Positions 4,479 through 40,130 of a stretch of 64,000 bases of DNA are shown here, one piece after another; the stretch's first letter is position 1; each line of letters opens with the position of its first letter. The stretch comes from Halocalculus aciditolerans (GTDB lineage: Archaea > Halobacteriota > Halobacteria > Halobacteriales > Halobacteriaceae): contig NZ_BMPG01000001.1 of the NCBI RefSeq assembly GCF_014647475.1, positions 372,001-436,000 of the forward strand. Reading direction: 5' to 3'. The notes under the pieces are model-generated. The model did no database searches, had not been told where the DNA came from, and was given only the letters and a program-made list of their open reading frames with translations. The position numbers were made by a program, and so were the translations under genes.

Positions 4479-4668
4479 ACTTGGCTGGTACGCGTTGGCA
4501 CGCGCCAGTGGTCCGTCGGTCGAACCGCGCCATATTCACCGCCTCCCGACCGTCCCCCGGCGTTTCAGCCACGTCCCCGGCGCACCCCGCGAAACGCCCG
4601 ATGCGGCCAGTATTTATACTCCCCGTGCGGCCCCCAGACACTTCACGCGGCCGTGCGACACCCCGACC

Positions 4669-6287: not shown

Positions 6288-7166
6288 ATGAACTGGCGGT
6301 CCGCGGCGGCGGCCGGGCTCGGCGTCGCGGCGCTCTCGCGCGAACCCGACCTCCCGCTCTCGCCGGTGTTCGCCCGCGGCCGCGTCGGCGCGGACTTCGG
6401 CGAGCGCACGGGCCTCGCCGGCGAGCGCGCGCACAGCGAGATGGACGACCTCGACGCCTTCGCCCGCGACGACTTCGACCCCGGCCGCGTCCACCCTACG
6501 ATTCGCGACTTCTACGAATCGACGCTCGACTACGCGATGTGGTTCGACGTCGACTGGCACCGGGGGTTCCGCGCGGGCGCGGCGGGCGCGGCACACCTGA
6601 CTCGCTGGCTCGAACAGCTGAACCTCCCCGGACCGGGCGCGGACGGCCCCTGGAACGTCGAGAGCGACCTGCGCCGCGTCCCCGACGACGCCGACCCGCG
6701 CGAGGACGTGCGACTGTGGACGCGCACGCGAACGGGCACGGGCGAGGCGGTGGCTGACCCGTCTGTCGAACCGGGTCAGACCGTATTCGTCGCGCTCTAC
6801 GGCGCACACGAGACCCCTTCCGGCGACCGGCTGGTGAACGTCGCCGTGCCGCTCCCGGGGTCGAACCTCTCGACCGTCCTCCGCCCCGACCACCTCGGCG
6901 CGGGCGACGCCACCGGCCTCGAACTGACGACGTTCGCGCCCGGCCAGCCCGGCCTCTTCGCGGTGACGCCCGCGGGCGCGTTCCGCCTCCCGATGCACCA
7001 GCGCTTCCGCACCTACCCCACGACCTCGCCCGCCGCCCCCTCGACGCCCGTCGCCGACGCCGACGTCGTCACGACACAGGAGATGTGGCTCTGCGGCCGC
7101 CAGTTTCTCACCGTCACCTACGGGATGCGCCGACGCCGACAGCGCGAGAACGAGCGCGAGTCGTGA
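6288..7166 (+). CDS. conserved haloarchaeal protein of unknown function
   Basis: A 292-residue soluble protein. I recall related haloarchaeal proteins sharing the HPTIRDFYEST, LYGAHE, VNVAVPLPGSNLSTVL and EMWLCGRQFLTVTYGM stretches, but no function is known to me. Trp, Tyr and Phe are frequent. Residues around 156-166 (ADPSVEPGQTV, bases 6753-6785) are encoded by a 33-base segment that matches, on the opposite strand, the dispersed repeat found at 12505-12602 and 40080-40130. It looks like an in-frame insertion between GTGEAV and FVALYGAHE. Confidence 0.72.
   Translation: MNWRSAAAAGLGVAALSREPDLPLSPVFARGRVGADFGERTGLAGERAHSEMDDLDAFARDDFDPGRVHPTIRDFYESTLDYAMWFDVDWHRGFRAGAAGAAHLTRWLEQLNLPGPGADGPWNVESDLRRVPDDADPREDVRLWTRTRTGTGEAVADPSVEPGQTVFVALYGAHETPSGDRLVNVAVPLPGSNLSTVLRPDHLGAGDATGLELTTFAPGQPGLFAVTPAGAFRLPMHQRFRTYPTTSPAAPSTPVADADVVTTQEMWLCGRQFLTVTYGMRRRRQRENERES
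6753..6785 (-). repeat. 33-bp dispersed element inside a CDS
   Basis: On the minus strand it reads TACGGTCTGACCCGGTTCG then ACAGACGGGTCAGC, with eight-base arms CTGACCCG/CGGGTCAG. It is the same length (33) and shares the core GACCCGGTTCG-CAGACG-G with the tandem copies at 12505-12602 and 40080-40130. Its length keeps the host reading frame open and adds 11 codons. Confidence 0.6.
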
Positions 7167-12504: not shown

Positions 12505-12602
12505 CGATACGACCCGGTTCGGCAGACGGGGCAGTGCCGATACGACCCGGTTCGGCAGACGGGGCAGTGCCGATACGACCCGGTTCGGCAGACGGGGCAG
12601 TG
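12505..12602 (+). repeat. three tandem copies of the 33-bp dispersed element
   Basis: Copies begin at 12505, 12538 and 12571 and are virtually identical. The unit starts CGATACGACCCGGTTCGGC and continues AGACGGGGCAGTGC. The array sits in the divergent promoter region between gltA and the PhoU/TrkA-C gene, just upstream of the latter's predicted TATA box. Related copies are at 6753-6785, 32621-32694 and 40080-40130. Confidence 0.9.
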
Positions 12603-12644
12603 TCGGTGCGAACGTTTTTCGGGGCTGCGAGCGCACGCAGAGGT

Positions 12645-31891: not shown

Positions 31892-32629
31892 ATGGACGTG
31901 ACTCTCCTGCGGCACGCGACGCTCCTCGTGGAACTGGACGGCGTGCGCTTCCTCGTCGACCCGATGCTCTCCGACGCCGGCGCGAACCCACCGGTCGAAA
32001 ACACGCCGAACCAGCGGCGGAACCCGCTCGTCGACCTCCCCGACGCGGTGACTGATGGCGATTCGGCCCTCGCTCACGACGCGGTCCTCGTCACGCACCG
32101 CCACACGGACCACTGGGACGCGTGGGCGGACGCCGTCGACCCGAGCACGCCCGTCTTCTGCAACCCCGCGGACGCCGAGCACTTCGAGGCGGACGGCCTC
32201 ACCGACGTTCGCCCCGTCGACGGGGGCGAGACGTTCGAGGGCGTGACGCTCCATCGGACGCCGGCCCGTCACGGCCACGGCGACCTCGCGGAAGCGATGG
32301 CTCCCGTCTGCGGGTTCGTCCTCGACGGCACCGAATCCCTCTACATCGCCGGCGACACCGTCTGGTACGACGCTGTCCCTGAGACCATCGACGACCACGA
32401 CCCGGACGCCGTCGTCCTGAACGCCGGCGCGGCGCAGTTCTTGGAGGGCGAGCCCATCACGATGACCGCGGAGGGCGTCGCGAACGTCCGCGACCACGTG
32501 AGCGACGGCACCGACGTCCTCGCCGTCCACATGGACGCTATCAATCACTGCCTCCTCTCCCGCGACGACCTCCGCGAGGCCGTCGACGACGTCGCGATCC
32601 CCGACGACGGCGAGACGGTCACCCTCTGA
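31892..32629 (+). CDS. MBL-fold metal-dependent hydrolase (UlaG-like)
   Basis: A 245-residue metallo-beta-lactamase-fold protein with the metal motif THRHTDHWD (near residue 70), RHGHGDLAEAM supplying another histidine, and IAGDTVWYD with the bridging aspartate. The family includes L-ascorbate-6-phosphate lactonase and many uncharacterised hydrolases; the substrate is unknown. Its last codons are duplicated just downstream as part of a 37-bp tandem repeat. Confidence 0.85.
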   Translation: MDVTLLRHATLLVELDGVRFLVDPMLSDAGANPPVENTPNQRRNPLVDLPDAVTDGDSALAHDAVLVTHRHTDHWDAWADAVDPSTPVFCNPADAEHFEADGLTDVRPVDGGETFEGVTLHRTPARHGHGDLAEAMAPVCGFVLDGTESLYIAGDTVWYDAVPETIDDHDPDAVVLNAGAAQFLEGEPITMTAEGVANVRDHVSDGTDVLAVHMDAINHCLLSRDDLREAVDDVAIPDDGETVTL

Positions 32630-32694
32630 CCCGGTTCGACGGGCGGGGGAGTGGCTCACCCTCTGACCCAGTTCGACGGGCGGGAGAGTAGTGC
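32621..32694 (+). repeat. 37-bp tandem duplication related to the 33-bp element
   Basis: ACCCTCTGACCCGGTTCGAC at 32621 recurs at 32658 as ACCCTCTGACCCAGTTCGAC, each followed by GGGCGGG. The unit starts in the last codons of the MBL gene and shares the GACCCGGTTCG core of the elements at 6753, 12505 and 40080. Confidence 0.7.
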
Positions 32695-37342: not shown

Positions 37343-37410
37343 CCTCGCGGCGAAGCCGCGAGTGAATCGCGACCCTTCCGGGCTCTTCGAGCCGCTCGGG
37401 TCGCGAATGC
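37343..37410 (-). repeat. dispersed repeat family R2, copy 3
   Basis: On the minus strand: GCATTCGCGACCCGAGCGG, CTCGAAGAGCCCGGAAGGG, TCGCGATTCACTCGC, and a GGCTTCGCC hairpin ending GCGAGG. It matches 2628-2690 closely. It lacks the GGGCTTTTAGTG end block. It lies between the convergent prf1 and metallophosphoesterase genes. Confidence 0.75.
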
Positions 37411-40079: not shown

Positions 40080-40130
40080 CAATACGACCCGGTTCGGCAG
40101 ACGAGTCGGTATCAATACGACCCGACCGAG
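40080..40130 (+). repeat. 33-bp dispersed element, one and a half tandem copies
   Basis: CAATACGACCCGGTTCGGC then AGACGAGTCGGTAT (40080-40112) is followed by a partial second copy CAATACGACCCGACCGAG at 40113. The 33-base period and sequence match the array at 12505-12602. It lies in the 217-base gap between mqo and atpD, which holds no gene. Confidence 0.8.

Follow-up and report, generated by a model that had tools for sequence, protein, structure and literature searches.

A dispersed 33-bp hairpin module, probably a short mobile element, in the genes and intergenic regions of a haloarchaeon

Halocalculus aciditolerans carries a 33-bp palindromic module, composed of a 5-nt lead, a 22-nt hairpin with a constant 10-nt loop (GTTCGNCAGA), and a 6-nt tail, that is probably a short non-autonomous mobile element. 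The module is dispersed in dozens of copies and has been added in whole 33-bp multiples at the sites that can be resolved; its hairpin is kept while the stem sequence changes, and its copies inside genes are confined to two acidic reading frames. Comparison of homologous sites further indicates that it inserted independently at different positions in two genera. The best-known coding-compatible palindromic repeats are those of Rickettsia (RPE), and a first-pass annotation of the window, by which is meant the whole 64,000-nt stretch analysed here (G000:C1:372001-436000 of the 3.38-Mb genome), had read one in-frame copy as their haloarchaeal equivalent. That interpretation is supported overall, and the covarying stem with its constant loop, the head-to-tail 33-bp modularity, and the restriction to acidic frames are additions to it.

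Copies in the window and in the genome

The in-frame copy interrupts a 292-aa gene whose product has no Pfam or NCBIfam match (Table 1). Read directly on the minus strand, positions 6782-6750 are GGTCT-GACCCGGTTCGACAGACGGGTC-AGCCAC; the arms CTGACCCG (6754-6761) and CGGGTCAG (6772-6779) pair perfectly over 8 bp, and the 24-nt core GACCCGGTTCGACAGACGGGTCAG is identical at 22 of 24 bases to the units at 12506-12604. A palindromic insert with perfect arms had been described here at 6753-6785, encoding ADPSVEPGQTV. The insert is present, with coordinates moved to 6750-6782 by the covariance model, and the added peptide is instead VADPSVEPGQT (codons GTG GCT GAC CCG TCT GTC GAA CCG GGT CAG ACC). 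V is encoded on both flanks, so that the boundary is uncertain by roughly one codon.

A tblastn comparison of the 292-residue query with fetched relatives found this peptide in none of the homologues aligned across the site (L062-L081, genomes G001-G055). The closest read ETGAA-VFVAVYG, ETGEA-VFVALYG, or DTGEA-VFVALYA, leaving a gap of exactly 11 residues, in agreement with the first-pass description of relatives that run directly from one block to the other; in the remaining homologues, the gap is 11-12 residues owing to variation in adjacent residues, and a local duplication near the site in L077 is unrelated. Since no aligned homologue carries the peptide and the closest have the 11-residue gap, the 33 bp appear to have been gained on this lineage. 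A single-sequence AlphaFold2 model of the protein had a pLDDT of 31, so that placement of the insert in a loop was not taken from it. In L076 and L077 (genomes G003 and G007), the counterpart of the 292-aa gene has in-frame tandem duplications around ER(F/Y)VN that differ in sequence from the 33-bp unit and are not a genome-wide family. The CTGGCTCACG repeat near the insert site in G003, G007, and G013 was rejected as a genome-wide family on counts not above the reversed control, and looks like a local tandem duplication.

Table 1. Positions in the window of the interrupted gene and of the repeat units
Feature	Position	Strand	Remarks
292-aa gene carrying the insert	6288-7166	+	Unknown function; insert is residues 155-165
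33-bp hairpin module, 5 + 22 + 6 nt, in frame	6750-6782	-	VADPSVEPGQT on gene strand; model match G000:C1:378750-378782, E 1.3e-8
22-nt hairpin core GACCCG-GTTCGACAGA-CGGGTC	6756-6777	-	Two extra foot pairs extend the arms to 6754-6761 and 6772-6779
Tandem array, three 33-bp units	12506-12604	+	Head-to-tail; between citrate synthase gene (minus strand) and PhoU/TrkA-C domain gene
Decayed unit	32623-32655	+	Model E 1.4e-4
Second decayed unit	32660-32692	+	3 mismatches to core; 37 bp from first
Full unit, intergenic	40081-40113	+	Model E 7.4e-9
Decayed start of second unit, CAATACGACCCGACCGA	40114-40130	+	Sequence

Within the window, the 18-mer core GACCCGGTTCGNCAGACG occurs eight times at up to 3 mismatches, a number reached by none of 100 dinucleotide shuffles (mean 1.66). 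The repeats previously placed at 12505-12602 and 40080-40130 are indeed copies of the unit, with revised extents: the former spans three whole units (12506-12604), and the latter a full unit (40081-40113) followed by a decayed half unit. The decayed pair at 32623-32692 had not been listed; the TGA of its first unit appears, by eye, to terminate a plus-strand reading frame that ends in VTL. A weak model match at 4504-4536 on the minus strand (E 0.0024) is either a decayed unit or chance. The window also contains a 54-nt inverted pair (2623-2676 and 37357-37410), 93% complementary and 34.7 kb apart, which may be a second dispersed palindromic repeat.

Across the whole genome, the 18-mer core has 86 copies (49 + 37) at up to 2 mismatches, against 0 + 0 for the reversed control, and the covariance model (R1) gives 122 matches at E<=1 and 82 at E<=1e-4. 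Statistics of position and frame were drawn from 484 kb fetched around copies, a copy-enriched sample that alters densities but not frames or pairing. It contains 104 pattern matches at up to 3 mismatches, of which 5 were judged chance and left out; the remaining 99 units make up 67 arrays, namely 40 of one unit, 23 of two, 3 of three, and 1 of four. Unit spacing is exactly 33 bp in 21 of 32 cases, and 25 of the 27 multi-unit arrays have their units in the same orientation, mostly head-to-tail. Opposite-orientation pairs, with GCCGCG/CGCGGC stems, occur at L083 (C1:109335-109431) and L104 (C2:209386-209448). Array mates are 83% identical, compared with a mean of 65.5% between loci, and tandem arrays would mostly arise by local duplication. 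The divergence between loci gives no sign of recent activity.

Model matches are confined to contigs C1-C4 (2.90 of 3.38 Mb) except for one at C7:21478-21510. Contigs C5-C27 (about 0.48 Mb), which may be plasmids, thus hold one unit where the density on C1-C4 predicts about 15. Neither a viral nor a plasmid origin was accepted: viral contigs gave 0 exact matches, and a lone match in a Natrinema plasmid, partial and weak at 80% over 51 nt (E 0.01), was not counted.

Reading frames and empty sites

The further copies expected by the first-pass annotation, inside as well as outside genes, exist by the dozen. Outside called genes lie 43 of the 67 arrays, compared with 13.8% intergenic bases in the sample (p = 4e-21). 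Fifteen arrays are within 9 bp of a stop codon, and the TGA at the stem foot, as read from sequence, appears to be the stop codon in several genes; no array comes closer than 24 bp to a called start.

The other 24 arrays lie inside genes as called by a simple codon-usage script, which could itself favour acidic frames, and seven of these "coding" arrays lie within 66 bp of the start as called and may precede the true one. They use antisense phase 0 in 21 cases and sense phase 2 in 3, and homology-confirmed inserts show the same choice. Both frames encode acidic products (mean net charge -1.09 and -0.72, respectively), whereas the average product of each of the remaining four is basic (+0.65 to +2.67). 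Among stop-free frames, the expected share of antisense phase 0 is 19%, an excess (p = 6e-13) for which stop codons alone are insufficient. The acidic-frame peptides are mostly D-T-D-P-S-V/A-E-P-G-Q/R-T, and by keeping to these frames inside genes the module adds 11n residues and survives. Copies would land widely, and selection would then remove any that fell in a promoter, a protein core, or a frame that is basic or contains stops; the survivors would be found at stop codons, between genes, and in loops that tolerate them. Haloarchaeal protein loops are often acidic, which could suggest that independent linkers have come to resemble one another through codon usage. Such a coincidence at the protein level is extremely improbable: it is already contradicted by the intergenic copies, the same DNA being found between genes and on both strands with a 33-bp period and a covarying hairpin, and other genomes of similar composition contain matches at background level only.

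In-frame inserts that face gaps in homologues are also seen in other genes of the genome. The archease insert ERDP-DTDPSVESGRT-VWY faces a gap of exactly 11 residues in one of four relatives compared and of 9 in another, and that of a metallo-beta-lactamase-like hydrolase faces gaps of 11 and 13 residues (exactly 11 in the best pair). For PurK, TusA, CobQ, and a phosphoesterase, the gaps against four relatives are about 9-22 residues in less exact alignments, and the N-terminal units of NAD synthase and fructose-bisphosphatase fall outside the aligned region. Matches of archease and PurK to solved structures stop at or just before the insert. Four histidine-kinase-like paralogues (L084, L091, L100, and L122) have units at a corresponding site, before a VADDGPG/VEDDGSG motif, that could have been inherited through gene duplication or acquired by repeated insertion.

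Among 25 other genomes of the family, R1 found convincing units only in two genomes of one genus (G001 and G007), each with one array of three units, 99 bp in length, in frame in a gene for an S9-type peptidase (STDPSAEPGQTNTDPSAEPGQTNTDPSAEPGHTE). The orthologue in the genome of the window (L199), 90% identical over residues 214-458, passes from query residue 180 to 214 with no bases between, and in the DNA alignment, where the flanks match closely, the two differ by a net 99 bp. Conversely, the window gene is without the insert in this sister genus (L070 and L077). Such reciprocal empty sites are the strongest evidence for mobility of the module. The two inserts share a common register and both fit the 5+22+6 layout. 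Clear target-site duplications were not seen at the insertion sites; at the S9 site, the only candidate is a TCG repeat of at most 3 bp.

The distribution of the module is narrow. In 392 haloarchaeal genomes of the order (95 genera), scanned with the reduced sensitivity that follows from scoring 18 candidates per genome, matches at E<=3e-5 came only from the two carrier genera and, in isolation, from G276. The single model matches in G276 (E 2.7e-5), G038, and G058, none with a neighbouring unit listed, were taken as chance, as were three single exact matches in unrelated bacteria from a collection of about 85,000 species that may omit the genome of the window and those near it.

Covariation of the stem

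The loop and the two pairs that close it are near-invariant, whereas the outer stem varies in concert. Over the named 7-bp stem of 81 units, 85.4% of cells are paired (73.3% when shuffled), 76 cells are changed on both sides (28 in shuffles), and the covariation is 0.365 (0.156 shuffled, with none of 500 shuffles reaching the observed value), all of these being counts that relatedness among units can inflate. Sliding one arm abolishes the covariation signal. Perfect 6-bp stems occur in 10 distinct sequences, and when all copies with the commonest left arm are removed, 15 of the remaining 44 are still perfect, compared with 2.0 (maximum 7) in shuffles. In 26 copies, tandem G.A mismatches take the place of two pairs, and 25 of these copies have a Watson-Crick pair outside the mismatches; when a unit of this type is folded as RNA, an outer helix GGUAC/GUAUC encloses the mismatches, and with DNA parameters the inner helix forms alone. 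In the alignment and base table, the sequences next to the stem feet are GGTAC/GATAY-like in the leads and AGTGTC-like in the tails. Most units fold stably, and the hairpin might be adopted by either RNA or DNA. Half-changes to G.T and to A.C are about equal (30 and 26, respectively), which lends no support to selection on one RNA strand.

A covarying stem with a constant loop, stable folding, and proximity to stop codons would also be expected of a functional hairpin, such as a transcription terminator, an mRNA 3'-end element, or a protein-binding site, placed at gene ends by selection with the coding copies as by-products. That the module is of this kind is unlikely. It occurs in both orientations relative to neighbouring genes, its arrays are restricted to two of 95 sampled genera, one of which has one array only, and the copies inside genes all keep to the two acidic frames; G-U bias is absent, and a scan of four loci gave no Rfam match to the elements, so that a known RNA family was rejected as the identity of the module.

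Possible machinery and known small repeats

No mobilising gene was identified. A search for Y1 transposases (PF01797) gave no match in G000, with five control genomes positive, including Haloferax volcanii, and mobilisation by an IS200 or RAYT enzyme of the genome itself was accordingly rejected; among relatives, G001, G006, and G009 have some and G007 has none. The module might instead be a classical REP or MITE that depended on an IS200/IS605 (Y1) transposase acting in trans, since lost from the genome. REPs and REPINs are stem-loop repeats of 20-40 bp whose copies number from dozens to thousands and are mostly intergenic, with some inside genes, and REPs in frame have been described in other bacteria (PMC3733652). 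The module falls within this range in its size, palindromic form, copy number, largely intergenic dispersion, and intragenic copies, and Y1 transposases are present in relatives, the sister-genus genome G001 among them. Unlike in the REP/RAYT system, however, the stem foot bears no GTAG or CGTC (alignment and base table), a conserved 10-nt loop is combined with a variable, covarying stem, and the arrays are predominantly in the same orientation, whereas REP dimers are mostly inverted (HH or TT; PMC3733652). In addition, the Y1 proteins surveyed in archaea are of the plain IS200 subclass only and not of the RAYT classes (PMC6006769), and neither G000 nor G007 has one, which together make a lost Y1 enzyme improbable.

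For the same two reasons, spread of the module without a dedicated enzyme is retained as a serious, if doubtful, rival to the mobile-element reading. Replication stalled at the hairpin, followed by template switching or ectopic gene conversion, would move whole 33-bp units and rewrite one arm from the other, and such rewriting would by itself yield matched arms. The lack of a Y1 transposase, the similarity of array mates, and the near-equal half-changes, which give no sign of RNA-specific pairing, are all consistent with it. So too is a concerted change at an orthologous unit, the first of the S9 array, which differs in both arms between the sister species (GACCCG/CGGGTC vs GGCCCG/CGGGCC) and could have been altered by local conversion from the neighbouring unit. 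Against it are the unrelated sites, which share no visible homology, and the unit ends, which are constant in the two insertions resolved best; these features are more like those of a processed element than of chance template switching. If the module is a mobile element, as we consider probable, copying may proceed through single-stranded DNA folded as a hairpin and recognised at the loop. A tentative extension is that it represents a separate class of archaeal mobile DNA, in which non-Y1 machinery recognises the hairpin loop of a 33-bp module and inserts it in whole units, the two arms are maintained or rewritten together, and the size and sequence of the module add an acidic 11-residue segment to the proteins of a halophile.

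Several other small repeats bear comparison. Known MITEs are far larger than 33 bp. Those of archaea resemble the module in being non-autonomous, dispersed, and archaeal, and may differ in that for the module no IS terminal inverted repeats, parent element, or clear target duplication was recognised (PF01797 search; S9 site). MITEs are listed for Sulfolobus, Halobacterium, and Haloquadratum (PMC10969869). RPE are short palindromic repeats of about 150 bp that lie in frame inside unrelated genes, where the peptide is tolerated, as well as outside genes (PMC10969869), and those of R. conorii end in CGTC (PMC3733652). In-frame insertion in unrelated protein genes is common to RPE and the module, here with 24 coding arrays and with inserts absent from homologues in the window gene, archease, the hydrolase, PurK, TusA, CobQ, and others. 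The module, by contrast, is only 33 bp or 11 residues long, lacks the CGTC end tag, forms head-to-tail 33-bp arrays, and resides in a different domain of life. The proposed equivalence with RPE therefore holds as an analogy, in that in-frame inserts recur and the module seems to work in a similar way, and fails as membership, from which it is set apart, relative to published descriptions of RPE, by its size, end tag, and array geometry. The small dispersed repeats (SDR) of cyanobacteria reportedly are very small units with no known transposase whose mobility was deduced from empty sites; the module is analogous in these respects and belongs to a different lineage.

In a limited and incomplete search of the literature, neither the 33-bp family nor any other coding-compatible palindromic element of archaea was found described, and the module is best classed as a new variant, from archaea, of these short palindromic elements. 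The choice of frame is directly visible in this family, with all 24 coding arrays in acidic frames, which ties the survival of the element to the salt-adapted proteome of its host. The matched stems and fixed loop, in turn, offer a concrete target, a loop-binding protein, in the search for what moves such small elements without a RAYT.
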